DNA of 64,000 nucleotides from Piscibacillus halophilus (lineage in GTDB: Bacteria; Bacillota; Bacilli; Bacillales; Alkalibacillaceae). Under the pieces are notes generated by a model. The model did not search any database. It saw only the letters and a program-made list of their open reading frames with translations, and was not told the origin of the DNA. Below are positions 41,580-48,503 of the stretch, piece after piece. Position 1 is the stretch's first letter. Each line of letters begins with the position of its first letter. The position numbers and the translations under genes are program-made. The stretch spans positions 1 through 64,000 of the forward strand of contig NZ_FOES01000001.1 of assembly GCF_900110685.1 (NCBI RefSeq), read 5' to 3'.

Positions 41580-44336
41580 ATGAGTTATAAAGAAACGCTC
41601 TTAATGCCGCAAACAGACTTCCCAATGCGTGGTAACTTACCGAAGCGCGAACCTGAAATGCAGAAACGTTGGGAAGAAGAAAATATTTATGAAAAAGTAC
41701 AAGAACGCACTAAAGGTCGACCATTATTTGTGCTACACGATGGTCCTCCATATGCAAATGGTGACCTACACATGGGGCATGCGCTCAATAAAATTCTAAA
41801 AGATTTTATTGTACGTTATAAATCGATGTCCGGTTACCATGCTCCATACGTACCTGGATGGGATACACACGGGCTTCCAATTGAAGTCGCCCTTACAAAG
41901 AAGAAAAAAATTAAACGTAAAGAACTAAGTATTACTGAATTCAGAAAACTATGTGAAGAATATGCACTTGATCAAATCGATCGTCAGCGTGAACAATTTA
42001 AACAATTAGGTGTTCGTGGTGACTGGGATAACCCATATATTACTTTAAAACCTGAATTTGAGGCTCAGCAAATTAAAGTATTTGGTGAGATGGCAAAACG
42101 TGGCTATATCTATAAAGGTAAGAAGCCGGTTTATTGGTCGCCATCTTCTGAATCAGCGTTAGCTGAAGCGGAAATTGAATATCAGGATAAACGTTCACCT
42201 TCTATTTATGTCGCTTTTGATGTAACGGATGGAAATGGTGTATTAGATGGCGATGAAAAAATCGTAATCTGGACGACAACTCCTTGGACGATTCCTGCTA
42301 ACTTAGCTATTGCTGTTCATCCTGAATTGGAATATGCAGTAGTAGAAGCAAGTGGTTCTAAATATGTCATTGCACATGACTTATTAGAAGAAGTCACTCA
42401 GAAGCTTGAATGGGAAAACCCAACAGTTGTTAAATCTCTAAAAGGTCAAGATTTAGAGCGCGTCGTTGCAAAACACCCATTCTACGATCGTGATTCACTA
42501 GTCATTCTAGGTGAACACGTTACAACTGAATCTGGTACGGGTTGTGTTCACACGGCACCAGGTCATGGTGAAGATGACTTCTGGATTGGAAAACAATATG
42601 ATTTAGATGTTCTTTGCCCTGTAGATGAAAAAGGTGTCTTTACAGAAGAAGCACCAGGATTTGAAGGCCAGTTTTATGACAAAGCAAACAAAGAAATCAC
42701 GCAAAAATTAGATGAAGTAGGAGCATTATTAAAGCTTGAATTCATCACTCACTCTTACCCACATGACTGGCGTACGAAAAAGCCAACGATTTTCCGTGCT
42801 ACATCACAGTGGTTTGCTTCTGTTAAAGATTTCCGTGAAGACTTGCTTGAAGCCATCAAAAACGTGAATTGGCACCCTCATTGGGGTGAAATCCGCATGC
42901 ACAACATGGTGAAGGATCGTGAAGATTGGTGTATTTCACGTCAACGTGTGTGGGGTGTACCAATTCCAGTATTCTATGGAGAAAACGGTGAGCCAATTAT
43001 CAATGAAGAAACGATCGAACACGTAGCCAACTTATTTAGAGAACACGGTTCAAATGTTTGGTTTGAACGCGAGGCTAAAGATTTATTACCAGAAGGATTC
43101 ACTCATCCATCAAGCCCGAATGGAAAGTTTACAAAAGAAACGGATATCATGGATGTTTGGTTTGACTCAGGTTCGACACATCAAGGAGTATTAGTTGAAC
43201 GTGATGATTTAGACCGTCCAGCCGATTTATATTTAGAAGGGTCAGATCAGTATCGTGGTTGGTTTAACTCTTCGTTAACAACTTCAGTGGCTGTAACAGG
43301 TAAAGCACCTTATAAAGGTATTTTAAGTCACGGATTTACTTTAGATGGTGAAGGTCGTAAGATGAGTAAATCTCTTGGCAATGTGATGGTTCCTTCTAAG
43401 ATTATGAAGCAATTAGGAGCCGACATTTTACGTCTTTGGGTAGCAAGTACAGATTACTCAGCTGACGTACGTGTATCAGACAATATTTTAAAACAAGTGG
43501 CAGAGGTCTACCGTAAGATTCGTAACACATTCCGTTTCTTACTTGGCAACTTACACGATTTTGATCCGACTAAAGATGCCGTTCCAGAAGCAGATTTAGA
43601 AGAAGTCGATCAGTATATGTTAATTCGTTTACAAGAAACCATTTGTAAGGTACGAAAAGCATATGATGATTATGAGTATTCAACGATTTATCATACTATC
43701 AACAACTTCTGTACGGTTGATTTAAGTTCATTCTATTTAGATTTCGCAAAAGATATTCTATATATTGAAAAAGCAGACGATCACCGTCGTCGTAGTATTC
43801 AAACGGTTTATTACGACATGATTGTAAGTTTAAGCAAACTACTATCACCAATTCTGTCTCATACTTCAGAGGAAGTTTGGCAGTATATCCCAGGGGTTGA
43901 AGAAGAAAGTGTTCAACTAACAGATATGCCTGAAGCTAGAGAAGTTAAAAATGAAGCAACGATTAAAGGAAAATGGGAAGACTTTATGGAAGTCCGTGAA
44001 GATGTGTTAAAAGCATTAGAAGAAGCACGTGCGGATAAAATCATTGGTAAGTCATTGGAAGCAAAATTAACAATCGTACCAAAAGATGAAGCAACCATGG
44101 ACTTATTAGAATCCATGAAACATTTACATCAGTATTTAATCGTATCAGAGGTTAATTTAGCTCAGAGTCACGATTTAGCAAAATCATATGACAGAGTTTC
44201 AGTAGCTGTAGAAAAACATGATGGTGAAAAGTGTCAACGTTGCTGGGTGGCATCACATACCGTTGGAAAAGATGAAAAACACCCTGATTTATGTGAACGT
44301 TGCGCAGATGTGGTAGATAAAAAGATGGAGTCCTAG
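41580..44336 (+). CDS. ileS: Isoleucyl-tRNA synthetase
   Basis: A 918-residue class I synthetase of the bacterial (type 1) form. HIGH motif in [13 protein letters not shown] (~residues 57-69), the CP1 editing domain with T-T-T-P-W-T-I-P (~235-242), K-M-S-K-S (~597-601) and a C-terminal zinc finger C-Q-R-C ... C-E-R-C (~888-911). Start ATG 41580 follows AAGGAGG; the open frame upstream is T-box leader. Codon use looks smoother than in the accessory genes that follow. Confidence 0.98.
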
Positions 44337-44358
44337 AATATAATTAAGTAGTTCAGTT

Positions 44359-44402
44359 CACCCCAAAGTTAGAGTAAAAGTCTAACCTTTGGGGTGTTTT
44401 TA
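44359..44402 (+). terminator. Terminator after ileS
   Basis: caccccaaagttaga pairs with tctaacctttggggtg (one bulge), followed by TTTTTA. It isolates ileS from the downstream cassette. Confidence 0.9.
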
Positions 44403-44517
44403 TATGGTCAAATTATTTAAAAAGTCGTGTGAGACGGAATTTTGTAAGTATCACATCGTGTTCATTCCATTACCAAGTACATATCAACATATTTTTCAGA
44501 AAATCCCAAGTAAATAT

Positions 44518-44545
44518 TTTACAAAAATAAATAAAATGTTAAAAT
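44518..44545 (+). promoter_or_regulatory. Promoter of the 44.6-48.3 kb cassette
   Basis: TTTACA (44518-44523), 16-base spacer, TGT-TAAAAT (extended -10, TAAAAT at 44540-44545). It lies about 40 bases before the first ribosome binding site and downstream of the ileS terminator, so the cassette has its own start. The stretch 44403-44517 holds no gene that I can support. Confidence 0.55.
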
Positions 44546-44584
44546 TTGAATATTAAAAAAATTTAGAGAGAGGAGGCGTAAACT

Positions 44585-44647
44585 ATTCATCTAAGTGAGA
44601 CACAAACAAAAAATAAGAATAGGAGGCTATTAAATAAAAAAAGTTAG
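44585..44647 (+). CDS. Possible 20-residue upstream ORF with ATT start
   Basis: AGGAGG (44571-44576) is followed after eight bases by ATT (44585), opening a frame that would read (M)HLSETQTKNKNRRLLNKKS and stop at TAG 44645. No ATG, GTG or TTG is available in the right place. The frame contains the next ribosome binding site (44621-44626), and its stop overlaps the start of the secreted-protein gene in another frame, as in leader-peptide coupling. It could equally be a gene remnant whose start codon mutated. Confidence 0.3.
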   Translation: MHLSETQTKNKNRRLLNKKS

Positions 44648-45044
44648 TCTAATTACTGTTTTAGTTATTACATTTATGGTTACTTTTTCAGTCATTATTA
44701 TTGCTGAGGAAAGTAATTCTCAAGTAAGTGGTGAGGAAATAGAAGAAAATCACATAAATTCAATAGTGGTATCTGTAACACCTACTAGTCAGAGAGTCCA
44801 AGGAGCGGAACGAGCTAATTGGACTGTTTATGCATCACATAATAATGGGAGTATGCCTATCACTTATACTTTAAATCCAGGTGACGGCTCTAAGTCTCTG
44901 GAATATACTTCATACAGTAGTTCACACAGTTTTAGTCATCGTTATAACCCTAGTGGAAGTTTAAAAAACTTTAATGTAACAGCTAGGGCTATTTACGATT
45001 ATGGCATGGATCATGATTACGCAACAGTTACATGGGTTCGTTAA
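44634..45044 (+). CDS. Small secreted protein with PKD-like domain (apparent ATA start)
   Basis: Translation from ATA 44634 gives 136 residues with a classic signal peptide: K-K, a hydrophobic core of about 20 residues (SLITVLVITFMVTFSVIII) and a cut near A-E-E. AGGAGG (44621-44626) is seven bases before this ATA, and a stop codon lies immediately upstream in frame. The first ATG (44676) would remove half the signal sequence and has no ribosome binding site. The mature part is an acidic linker plus one ~80-residue beta domain (Y-T-L-N-P-G-D-G-S, then H-S-F-S-H-R-Y-N-P-S-G, V-T-A-R-A, D-Y-A-T-V-T-W), like a PKD fold. No cysteines. Function unknown; probably a substrate or partner of the adjacent ABC system. 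Confidence 0.6.
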   Translation: MKKVSLITVLVITFMVTFSVIIIAEESNSQVSGEEIEENHINSIVVSVTPTSQRVQGAERANWTVYASHNNGSMPITYTLNPGDGSKSLEYTSYSSSHSFSHRYNPSGSLKNFNVTARAIYDYGMDHDYATVTWVR

Positions 45045-45049
45045 TAAGA

Positions 45050-45088
45050 ATAAAACAAAGGTTGCACTAGGTGTAACCTTTGTTTTAT
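45050..45088 (+). terminator. Attenuator-like hairpin between secreted protein and permease
   Basis: ataaaacaaaggtt (45050-45063) pairs perfectly with aacctttgttttat (45075-45088), loop of 11. The U-rich part is inside the stem, so termination may be partial. This would give more secreted-protein mRNA than transporter mRNA. Confidence 0.6.
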
Positions 45089-45104
45089 AACAAGGTGGGA
45101 TAAA

Positions 45105-47603
45105 ATGTTTTCACTTCACGTACAACATATTATAAATAATAAAAAGTCAATAATTGTCATGATTCTCATGTTAATTGTGATCTTCACTTTAAGTCCAACG
45201 GCTTTTAAGATGGTATGGGAAGGTCATGAGCAGGTTAATGCTGATATAACCGATTTTTCCAGAGGTGATTACGATTTACTTGTTCGTGCAAGTCAATCAG
45301 AAATTGAAAGAGAACTCGGTGTGGTTGAGGAGAATTATCTAGGTGTTGGTAATGGTGGAATTACATATGAACAATGGGAAAACATCAAAAAAGACCCACG
45401 AATTGAAACCGCTGCACCCGTTGCATCTTTAGGATTTTTTACTAAGATTGATCAGATGTATCAATTACCAAAGGAAGAAGGGTCCAATCGGTATACCGTT
45501 AGTTACAAAACAACAGATGGTGTTAATACTTATTTGATTAATCAACAGACTGCTTATTTGTTCAAGGATAATGAGGTAGTTTATGATTATTTTTATCCTA
45601 TAGAATTAATGAATATATTTGGAGAATTTGATAATGCAAACTTCGAAATTCCCTCCTCATATCATCCAGTAATAGCTATTGATCCACAAGAAGAGAAGGA
45701 ATTAACAGGAATAGATTTTTCTATATTAAATAAAAACATTAACAACGTTCAGACATTCCCTGAAGAAAGTCAGTTAATACCACTCATTGATATAGCAGAA
45801 TCGTCGACACCTATTACAACTGAAGTTTTAATAGAGAGATTAGACATTACTCATCAAGAAATTAACGATTTGAAACAGGCTGTTGATTTGTCACCAAATC
45901 AAAGCTTAAGTGATTTAGAGTATTATGCTGAACTTAGAGGGGAACATGTTGAAGAGCGAGATGAAGTCAAGGAAGCTTTAGACACCATTGAAGAAACCGA
46001 TGAGCAAGTACATATCATTAATTTTTTTGAGCATCTTAGTCCTTTTGAACAAGAATGGTATATGATTGATGATGATTATAATATTGTTATGGAATCTGAG
46101 TATGACATAGACGAGCATGGAGAAGCGGGAAGGTCTTCTGGATACTTATCTCAAAATGTTATATACAAATCATTATCACCTAAATATCAAAAGACGCAGA
46201 ATGGTTTATCTATAGAACTATTGGACTATGAAGGGGAAATACCTATTCATCGTGACTTGGAACAAGTTCAGTTTCAAGAATATGATGTGAATGGTGATAA
46301 TAGTGATTTATTGAATCTATTTCAAGTTGACACTGTTACTGTGGGAGAGTATGTTGATTCCTTAGCTGCTAGTCCGATGGGTATTTATCACTATCAATAT
46401 GGACACCTAAAAGAAACAGGAGAACAACTGAAACCGACTCATCACCCAGGAAGTTTTTTATCTTTACCAGCCAATGGGCTGATTTCAATCGACTGGGCGG
46501 ACGAGTTTAAGGGTGAAGCACCAATAGATGCTATTCGTGTCAAAGTAGCTGGATTATCTGGTTATACGGAAGAAGCCTCTCAGAAAATTCAGCACGTAGC
46601 TGAAGAAATTGAAGAGATGGGACTTCATGTTGATATTGTGGCTGGGGCTTCACACCAAAATATTGATGTTCAAGTTGAAGGAATTGGCATGGTTGTGATG
46701 CCTTGGACAACATTGGGAGCAGCAGAATCAATAATTAATAGTTGGAATGTATTCTCAATTGTTATTTCAATATCTTTTATACTAGTAGCACTATTATCAT
46801 TCGTAGCGCGAATTCGCACAATGGAACATGAGTTATATGAAGATAAAATTAGATTAGGATTAATAGGATGGAAACCATCAACGATTCAAACATTTTATAG
46901 AGCACAGTGGGGAATTCAAATAGTGTTAAGTGTTGTTCTATCATTAGTAATATTACTTCTTTCGTTTGGAATTGATATTTTAATGTTAATAGGATGGAGT
47001 ATCACTATTTTTATAGTTATGATCATACATGCCAGTTTTACAGTTTTGTATAAGCAAAAAAATAATAAAACACATAAACCTAGACAATCATTTTTAATAG
47101 CGAATATTTATTATTACCGTAGACATATACAAGCAGCGAGTTTACAGCTTTTATTTTCCACTTCAGTTATTGCATTTTTGCTTACCGTACAACAAGTTGT
47201 TTCAAATCGTATCAGTGTCACAGATTTAGGGCAATATATTCATTTTCAAATTAATGAACTACAAATCATTCTTTTATTAAGTGTCGTGTTATTAACAGTA
47301 TACACATTAAGTGAATCCATTTACCGAATGTGGAAGGAACGTGAAGAACAGATTGAATTTCTAAAGGTAATGGGATGGCAAAATAAAGATATTAGAAGGT
47401 CCTATACAAAAGAAACTTTATCATGGGTGAGTCCTTCTGTAGTTATGGGGAATATAATTGGGATCATAGCAGTCGTAGTTTTTTTCCCAGTGAATTTAAC
47501 AGTCGTAGGTATTAATTTGATTGTTACCTTAAGTATATTGTTTGCCTTGACAATTGTTTTGAAAGTGGGATTAAGACAAATTTTGATGAGAGGGGTATCT
47601 TGA
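45105..47603 (+). CDS. Large FtsX/MacB-type ABC transporter permease
   Basis: An 832-residue membrane protein: one N-terminal helix (~15-37), a very large extracellular domain (~38-545), three helices (~545-567, 603-622, 625-650), then a second group (~678-698, 718-738, 775-795, 801-821). The ectodomain end (A-I-R-V-K-V-A-G-L, then V-D-I-V-A-G-A-S and V-Q-V-E-G-I-G) and the following helices fit FtsX-like permeases. Such MacB-type proteins act as mechanotransmitters that expel peptides or lipoproteins from the outer face of the membrane rather than classical importers. Start ATG 45105 follows AAGGTGG. It overlaps the ATPase gene. The substrate is unknown; the small secreted protein is the obvious candidate. 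Confidence 0.75.
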   Translation: MFSLHVQHIINNKKSIIVMILMLIVIFTLSPTAFKMVWEGHEQVNADITDFSRGDYDLLVRASQSEIERELGVVEENYLGVGNGGITYEQWENIKKDPRIETAAPVASLGFFTKIDQMYQLPKEEGSNRYTVSYKTTDGVNTYLINQQTAYLFKDNEVVYDYFYPIELMNIFGEFDNANFEIPSSYHPVIAIDPQEEKELTGIDFSILNKNINNVQTFPEESQLIPLIDIAESSTPITTEVLIERLDITHQEINDLKQAVDLSPNQSLSDLEYYAELRGEHVEERDEVKEALDTIEETDEQVHIINFFEHLSPFEQEWYMIDDDYNIVMESEYDIDEHGEAGRSSGYLSQNVIYKSLSPKYQKTQNGLSIELLDYEGEIPIHRDLEQVQFQEYDVNGDNSDLLNLFQVDTVTVGEYVDSLAASPMGIYHYQYGHLKETGEQLKPTHHPGSFLSLPANGLISIDWADEFKGEAPIDAIRVKVAGLSGYTEEASQKIQHVAEEIEEMGLHVDIVAGASHQNIDVQVEGIGMVVMPWTTLGAAESIINSWNVFSIVISISFILVALLSFVARIRTMEHELYEDKIRLGLIGWKPSTIQTFYRAQWGIQIVLSVVLSLVILLLSFGIDILMLIGWSITIFIVMIIHASFTVLYKQKNNKTHKPRQSFLIANIYYYRRHIQAASLQLLFSTSVIAFLLTVQQVVSNRISVTDLGQYIHFQINELQIILLLSVVLLTVYTLSESIYRMWKEREEQIEFLKVMGWQNKDIRRSYTKETLSWVSPSVVMGNIIGIIAVVVFFPVNLTVVGINLIVTLSILFALTIVLKVGLRQILMRGVS

Positions 47604-48310
47604 TGGATATTAATGTAATGAATCTATCCAAAACTTATGAATCAAACGTGGAACAAAAGAAAGTATTAGATCAAGTGACATTTAAAGTGAATAAGGGAGA
47701 ATGGGTTAATATTATTGGACGTTCAGGTTCAGGAAAAACAACACTCCTTAAATGTTTAAGTGGAATAATGTCCGCTGATCGTGGTTCAATAATAAACATA
47801 GGTGATTTACCCATTCATTCAAAATCTGAAGAAGACCGACGTGAATTCCGTAGACAACACATTGGGTATATTTATCAAGATTATCAGCTATTTCCTGCTT
47901 ATACAGCTAAGCAAAATGTGATGTTGCCGGAATTACCATATCAAAATGAATCGATATTGTTAAAACGCGCAGAAGAATTAATGGAACAGCTGAATATAGA
48001 ACATCGACAAGATGCATTACCTAATCAATTGTCAGGTGGTGAACAACAACGTGTAGCAATTGCAAGAGCATTACTTAACAATCCTGATATTTTCGTTTGT
48101 GATGAACCAACAGGGAATTTAGATCGATCCACAAGGGATGAAGTGTTACAAATATTAAAGCAATTGCAAGAAGAAGGGCGAACAATCTTATTTGTGACTC
48201 ATGATTATGATGTTATTGAATATGGGGATCGTATATTTGAAATGGATGATGGTAGGTTAGAAGAAGTTTCCCAAAAAACACTTATAATAGAAAAACCTAT
48301 CAAAAATTAA
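47603..48310 (+). CDS. ABC transporter ATP-binding protein (LolD/MacB type)
   Basis: A 235-residue ABC ATPase: Walker A G-R-S-G-S-G-K-T-T (~residues 39-47), Q-loop Y-Q-D-Y-Q-L-F-P (~93-100), signature L-S-G-G-E-Q-Q-R (~142-149), Walker B I-F-V-C-D-E-P-T-G-N-L-D (~162-173) and H-loop V-T-H-D (~197-200). The Q-loop and D-loop pattern is that of the MacB/LolD export family, matching its FtsX-type permease. ATG 47603 overlaps the permease stop (TGATG). A terminator follows the cassette. Confidence 0.92.
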   Translation: MDINVMNLSKTYESNVEQKKVLDQVTFKVNKGEWVNIIGRSGSGKTTLLKCLSGIMSADRGSIINIGDLPIHSKSEEDRREFRRQHIGYIYQDYQLFPAYTAKQNVMLPELPYQNESILLKRAEELMEQLNIEHRQDALPNQLSGGEQQRVAIARALLNNPDIFVCDEPTGNLDRSTRDEVLQILKQLQEEGRTILFVTHDYDVIEYGDRIFEMDDGRLEEVSQKTLIIEKPIKN

Positions 48311-48402
48311 TTCTAAGACCTTTAAAACATTTCCGATCAAATTTTCAATATTAATAAACAAACCCTTAAAACATAATGTTTTTATGCTCAAATAGAAAAT
48401 GG

Positions 48403-48436
48403 ACGTTTCCGACTTTAGACCGGAAACGTTTTTTCT
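48403..48436 (+). terminator. Terminator after the ABC cassette
   Basis: acgtttccg (48403-48411) with cggaaacgt (48421-48429), loop of nine, then TTTTTC. Confidence 0.88.
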
Positions 48437-48503
48437 TGTTAATCGTCTAATTTAAGATTTTATGGTAAAATTCTATAGGATAGCTATTAATGGAGGTAGC
48501 AAA

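Follow-up and report, generated by a model that had tools for sequence, protein, structure and literature searches.

Between ileS and lspA of Piscibacillus halophilus lies a group of three genes that raises the question of why a small secreted protein should be encoded together with an ATP-binding cassette (ABC) transporter. The genes are located on the forward strand of contig NZ_FOES01000001.1, within the stretch of 64,000 nucleotides analysed here (henceforth the window), in which ileS (ending at 44336) is followed by a cassette and then by lspA. The cassette is made up of a 136-codon Sec-type protein (44634-45044), an 18-bp stem-loop (45050-45088), an FtsX-type permease of 832 aa (45105-47603), and a LolD-like ATPase of 236 aa (47600-48310) that overlaps the permease stop codon. 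An initial annotation of this DNA had placed the locus, the permease, and the ATPase correctly and had described a self-contained system of a PKD-like protein with its own exporter. Our analysis retains the system but not the exporter: judged from sequence evidence, the cassette may well be a putative bacteriocin-like unit in which a PKD-fold antagonist is paired with its own Type VII ABC transporter, which would protect the producer. Taken together, the layout of the locus, its expression element, its mobility, the matched distances between its proteins, and a small gene that is lost before the transporter favour this tentative reading over both an exporter and an obligate subunit.

A profile scan of GTDB with seven permeases identified 71 loci, mostly from Bacillaceae, and in most of these a Sec-type small protein of one family (118-150 aa) is encoded directly upstream of the permease or the ATPase. 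Two gene orders occur, small gene-permease-ATPase and small gene-ATPase-permease, and the permease tree requires only two switches between them. To determine co-occurrence, we used a small-protein profile scan that was independent of the permease scan, both being run on the identical 397 genomes of the order, and counted close-family permeases scoring above 700 bits and small genes with an E value less than 1e-7. Both were present in 12 genomes, the permease only in 7, the small gene only in 2, and neither in 376 (Fisher p 1.6e-16), which bears out the description as a self-contained system with co-occurring genes. Of the two small-only exceptions, one is a broken small gene whose neighbouring ATPase is broken as well, and the other a lone PKD protein close to a contig end. 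The small gene accompanies only permeases of ~830 aa, and the distant longer ones (frames of ~850-1540 aa) were found without it in the stretches read. Moreover, small-protein and ectodomain distances correlate (r 0.82), and the partial correlation is 0.49 given the transmembrane (TM) part of the permease (Mantel 0/1000) and 0.54 given the ATPase. The initial annotation had named two outcomes that would speak against it, namely that the genes do not co-occur and that the transporter belongs to a characterised antibiotic-sensing family without a small partner; we found neither.

Several loci depart from the usual arrangement. On an actinobacterial (Nitriliruptoraceae) contig, a PKD-like small protein is encoded immediately 5' of a related permease (L099:889-3893), and the pair is therefore not confined to Bacillota. 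On a Bacillota metagenome contig, two tandem small genes lie 5' of a longer permease of 1343 aa (L085:3976-4855), and at L039:2293-7813 one small gene and one ATPase are followed by two full-length tandem permeases. An Anaerolineae contig encodes two related permeases, each after a Cys-rich Sec-type peptide of ~90 aa (L101:3364-8559); these peptides, unlike the PKD family, are a possible further partner class.

The small frame is protein-coding, as shown by a relative at 47% identity and 30 further family members. Because BLAST with the small protein against 60 relatives matched solely the paralogue in its own genome, a family profile was needed, and a PDB sequence search gave nothing significant. 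The AlphaFold2 model has eight strands, with residues 41-136 at a predicted local distance difference test score (pLDDT) of 92-98. Foldseek alone returned unspecific immunoglobulin-like matches, whereas VIA-align placed PKD domains on top. They take all of the first seven ranks (Z 10.8-11.2), with a root mean square deviation (rmsd) of 1.7-2.0 Å over ~84 residues, apart from one at 3.2 Å over 92. The secreted domain is thus predicted to be a PKD beta-sandwich, the same fold as in PKD domains represented by PF18911 and PF00801, for example that of Clostridium collagenase (rmsd ~2 Å over 84 residues). Unlike in usual PKD proteins, however, the single PKD-like domain constitutes the entire mature protein. 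In Pfam, PKD_4 matches 4 of the 33 family members (best E value 3.3e-5), with the window member at an E value of 0.046; since the latter reaches 14.2 bits for PKD/PKD_4 and is therefore below the gathering cut-off of 27, we refer to it as PKD-like and not as a Pfam member. Inspection of the alignment by eye revealed neither a lipobox nor a sorting motif, and no motif obviously suggestive of catalysis. Matrix and surface-layer (S-layer) domains are also among the structural neighbours. Kinship with the antibacterial protein JUQZ-1/BLB8 (NF053514) was rejected, as 3 of the 33 members match weakly and below the cut-off (best E value 0.004) and as no ABC genes lie within 1.5 kb of JUQZ-type genes; kinship with LMxysn_1693 was likewise rejected, the match being confined to the signal peptide region.

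The permease matches PF02687 above the cut-off (E value 1.3e-6), and FtsX is the only domain found in it. Its AlphaFold2 model (pLDDT 84.6) has eight TM helices arranged on a 1+3 and 1+3 plan, with one ectodomain of ~490 residues (about 52-538) after TM1. In structural comparison the permease comes closest to YbbP (Z 25.6, 505 residues, rmsd 7.6) and BceB (Z 22.3); it also matches LolC, MacB, and FtsX and shows the mechanotransmission fold. The ATPase, of the LolD/MacB type, matches PF00005 (E value 2.7e-37) and scores best with LolD (TIGR02211, 203.5 bits against a cut-off of 307.75), remaining under every equivalog cut-off among the matches listed. On the basis of these models, the permease is predicted to be a Type VII ABC protein of the MacB/LolC/BceB/YbbP kind with a separate ATPase. 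Type VII transporters act on the extracytoplasmic face of the membrane, and what typically defines them is a partner protein; as a rule they carry no substrates across the cytoplasmic membrane (PMC12646458). Since the small protein comes with a Sec signal of its own and such transport is not the rule for Type VII proteins, the term exporter is unsupported; the small protein is the obvious candidate for the partner of this permease and ATPase.

The comparison with known Type VII transporters shows both likeness and difference. The nearest whole-permease fold is that of E. coli YbbAP-TesA, which likewise has two FtsX halves per chain, a separate ATPase, and a nearby soluble extracytoplasmic partner (PMC12646458); however, YbbP combines 10 TM helices with two large periplasmic domains, whereas the permease described here is modelled with eight and has one ectodomain, and the partner of YbbAP is an esterase (TesA) whereas the partner candidate here is a PKD domain. 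BceAB-type transporters (BceB, Z 22) also combine an FtsX permease that has one large ectodomain with a separate ATPase, and the operon of one of them, YsaDCB, likewise includes a secreted peptide, YsaD. In this type, however, the large ectodomain lies between TM7 and TM8 and not, as here, between TM1 and TM2, the sequence match runs through the FtsX domain only, and the copies in the P. halophilus genome have no kinase/regulator pair beside them. MacB and LolCDE have the Type VII fold in common with the permease, the periplasmic domains of LolE and MacB match its ectodomain, and LolD is the best match of its ATPase; unlike those systems, the cassette has no MacA, TolC, or lipoprotein substrate, and its permease is a double FtsX chain.

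The initial annotation had also noted a hairpin after the small gene, and this proved real: the stem-loop on the + strand at the small gene/permease junction folds at -22.6 kcal/mol (z -6.2). Folding at z < -3 is found at 20 of 29 junctions after the small gene, as compared with 15 of 173 other same-strand gene junctions (p 8e-12) and 6 of 264 random stretches, and the sequence of the stem-loop differs between loci while the structure recurs. This recurrence suggests that the small protein is produced in excess over the transporter.

The same layout, a Sec-type small protein followed by a stem-loop, a large membrane protein, and a small ABC ATPase, is found in lactococcin-972-type loci (lcn972-orf2-orf3 and scbABC), as the initial annotation had recognised. 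We therefore used such loci as a yardstick. Their stem-loops have z-scores of -4.6, -6.9, and -5.5 in three loci, and a fourth locus gave -32.8 kcal/mol over a longer folded stretch for which there is no z-score. The proteins themselves are different. No profile similarity was detectable between the small proteins and lactococcin 972 (hhalign probability 3%), the membrane proteins compare at an hhalign probability of 1%, and those of the lactococcin type have DUF1430 (bact_immun_7tm type) whereas the cassette permease has FtsX and a different ectodomain. TIGR01653/PF09683 did not match the window small protein and matched one of the 33 members at an E value of 0.012, and PF09683 had no match anywhere in the P. 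halophilus genome. These negative profile comparisons speak against homology to lactococcin 972 and, together with the PKD matches, agree with the suggestion of a PKD-like and not a lactococcin-like small protein. The cassette represents a new family whose layout and transporter mechanism are both known.

We further compared the fate of the small gene with that of the transporter. Among the 49 loci with an intact permease, the small gene is intact in 26, broken in 7, and absent in 16. The seven loci with a broken small gene (L008, L035, L057, L059, L062, L081, and L082) fall on seven branches of the permease tree, and permease and ATPase are open in all of them; in Terrihalobacillus insolitus, an insertion of ~1.5 kb splits the small gene and the transporter is intact (L062:2087-4246). 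The reverse case, an apparently intact small gene with a broken permease, was found twice (L071 and L083), which rules out a strict one-way loss of the small gene only. Nevertheless, seven of nine first lesions are in the small gene although the transporter is ~8 times longer (binomial p 6e-6), making neutral decay unlikely. The repeated loss of the small gene from loci whose transporter is intact also argues that export is not the sole task of the transporter.

Whether these properties point to an antagonist was one of the alternatives left by the initial annotation, which had listed an antagonist, a signal, or an envelope protein; the sequence evidence favours an antagonist with self-protection without proving it. 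The stem-loop is common to lactococcin-972-type loci, the small protein of which is a bacteriocin, and the 16 loci with an intact transporter that lack the small gene resemble members of that type in which the transporter genes are kept and the small gene is lost, as in pneumococcus, where scbBC occurs without scbA (PMC11796350). In such a unit the stem-loop would trim or protect the message of the small gene so that the small protein is made in excess, and the protein would be exported via Sec, cleaved after its signal peptide, and folded outside the cell as one free PKD-like beta-sandwich. Related cells would be harmed by the free protein, with the cell wall or the surface of the membrane as the probable site, and the permease ectodomain would recognise it, enabling the ATP-driven Type VII machine to pull it off the membrane or target and so to protect the producer. 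Toxicity, target, binding, and protection are the parts that we infer. Several observations weigh against this scheme. PKD domains are common, non-toxic binding modules, and the mature small proteins vary in charge from -5 to +6 and are thus not consistently cationic. Loss of the small gene with retention of the transporter would follow equally if the small protein were an optional modulator, and retained transporters might serve another substrate. In addition, the loss counts are small and come from loci ascertained via the permease, an absent small gene could mask an unrecognised partner, and high expression driven by the stem-loop also suits an abundant envelope protein.

The structural kinship of the permease with YbbP and BceB suggests a different role for the small protein, that of a working part or modulator of the transporter comparable with TesA for YbbAP, EnvC for FtsEX, or YsaD for YsaCB of Lactococcus. 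The complex would then perform an envelope task such as removal of a lipid-cycle antibiotic, and the small protein would tune it. Such a role agrees with the co-variation of ectodomain and small protein, with the extracytoplasmic partner that typically defines Type VII transporters (PMC12646458), and with the sharing of an operon by the secreted peptide YsaD and a Bce-like transporter (PMC7438565). We nevertheless consider it rather unlikely: the stem-loop suggests unequal amounts of the products, neither a histidine kinase nor a response regulator is encoded beside the copies in the P. halophilus genome, a crude histidine-kinase motif scan was positive in 1 of 52 loci, and at least a dozen losses of the small gene have left the transporter in place, so that the small protein is not an essential subunit.

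The same losses bear on the idea that the small protein belongs to the envelope or matrix, or serves as a signal, and that the transporter detaches it from the outside of the membrane and propels it through the wall in the manner of MacB or LolCDE. The Type VII mechanism, the presence of a free secreted PKD domain devoid of lipobox and sorting signal, and the matrix and S-layer domains among its structural neighbours are all compatible with release, but 23 loci have an intact transporter and no working small gene, soluble Sec proteins of Gram-positive bacteria require no release machine, and known Lol substrates are lipoproteins whereas this protein lacks a lipobox; we regard this explanation as improbable. 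It appears very improbable that an islet is merely shared by a mobile transporter for resistance and a secreted protein that does not work with it, for even though the transporter often occurs alone, the small family is linked near-exclusively to this subfamily of permeases; the linkage holds in both gene orders, and the distances match.

An antagonist with self-protection could apply beyond this locus: the cassettes possibly constitute an undescribed family of single-PKD-fold antibacterial proteins with their own Type VII self-protection transporters, spread as an islet among Bacillaceae and with related forms in other phyla. If so, a widespread binding fold regarded as passive would serve as a secreted weapon or signal that comes with ATP-driven protection, the lactococcin-972 layout would have a second, unrelated lineage in Gram-positive bacteria, and Type VII ABC transporters would have a new class of partner. 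Because what the transporter genes do in lactococcin-972-type loci is itself unverified (PMC11796350), an independent system with the same layout would provide a second test ground. Our literature search retrieved no paper joining PKD domains, bacteriocins, and such a transporter, and whatever its function, the link between an abundant secreted protein and a conserved transporter in dozens of genomes is undescribed in the literature searched.

The cassette is a mobile islet with a patchy distribution and decayed copies. Similarity to the empty sites of three relatives (G001, G006, and G007) stops at 44305-44334 and restarts at 48432-48441, giving an approximate extent of the insertion of 44335-48432 (+ strand). 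In these relatives ileS and lspA are 68-120 bp apart, and in all 20 relatives with both genes inside the stretch retrieved, the 68-1085 bp between them are free of the cassette; the sole other genome of the genus (82% complete) has a spacing of 120 bp. A second intact copy in the P. halophilus genome (contig C55) is flanked by genes for a hydrolase lipoprotein and a 5'-nucleotidase. In a third, decayed copy (contig C76, L157:6089-9509), small gene and permease are broken and the ATPase is open; its flanking genes resemble spoIID and a SpoIIQ-like peptidase. Carriage by a plasmid or phage was rejected, as no plasmid record exceeded 58% coverage and no viral contig was found, and so was a role in anti-phage defence, for which PADLOC gave no match.

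The terminators and promoter assigned by the initial annotation stand in part. The left hairpin (44359-44396, + strand) folds at -21.1 kcal/mol (z -4.8) but is missing from the terminators listed by the pattern scan, and the right one (48403-48429, z -2.9), given without a strand in our feature list, is placed on the minus strand by that scan. A promoter-like site (TTTACA-16-TAAAAT with extended TG; 44518-44545, + strand) was found by pattern scan but is unproven, as such sites are no commoner in the region than in shuffled sequence (16 vs. 21.8).

The frame of the small gene was assigned correctly, but it begins with ATA and not ATG. This ATA (44634), from which the frame has 136 codons, directly follows an in-frame TAA and lies 6-7 nt downstream of AGGAGG, whereas the first ATG (44676), which would leave 122 codons, sits inside the signal peptide and has no Shine-Dalgarno site. 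An ATA at the equivalent start is also present in two relatives (L041:3840 and L051:3727), so that ATA starts with a well-placed Shine-Dalgarno site and no upstream in-frame alternative occur in three genera; they may represent rare start codons, coupling to an upstream open reading frame (uORF), or weakening mutations. From the letters alone, two possible uORFs can be drawn on the + strand, an ATT frame behind GAGGAGG (44571-44577) that overlaps the small-gene start (44585-44647) and, alternatively, a GTG frame that ends at it (44595-44633). A second Shine-Dalgarno site 50-63 nt 5' of the small gene is found in four members of one permease clade (the window, 44571-44647, and L034, L038, and L052), and the possible short frames behind it end at, or overlap, the start of the small gene.

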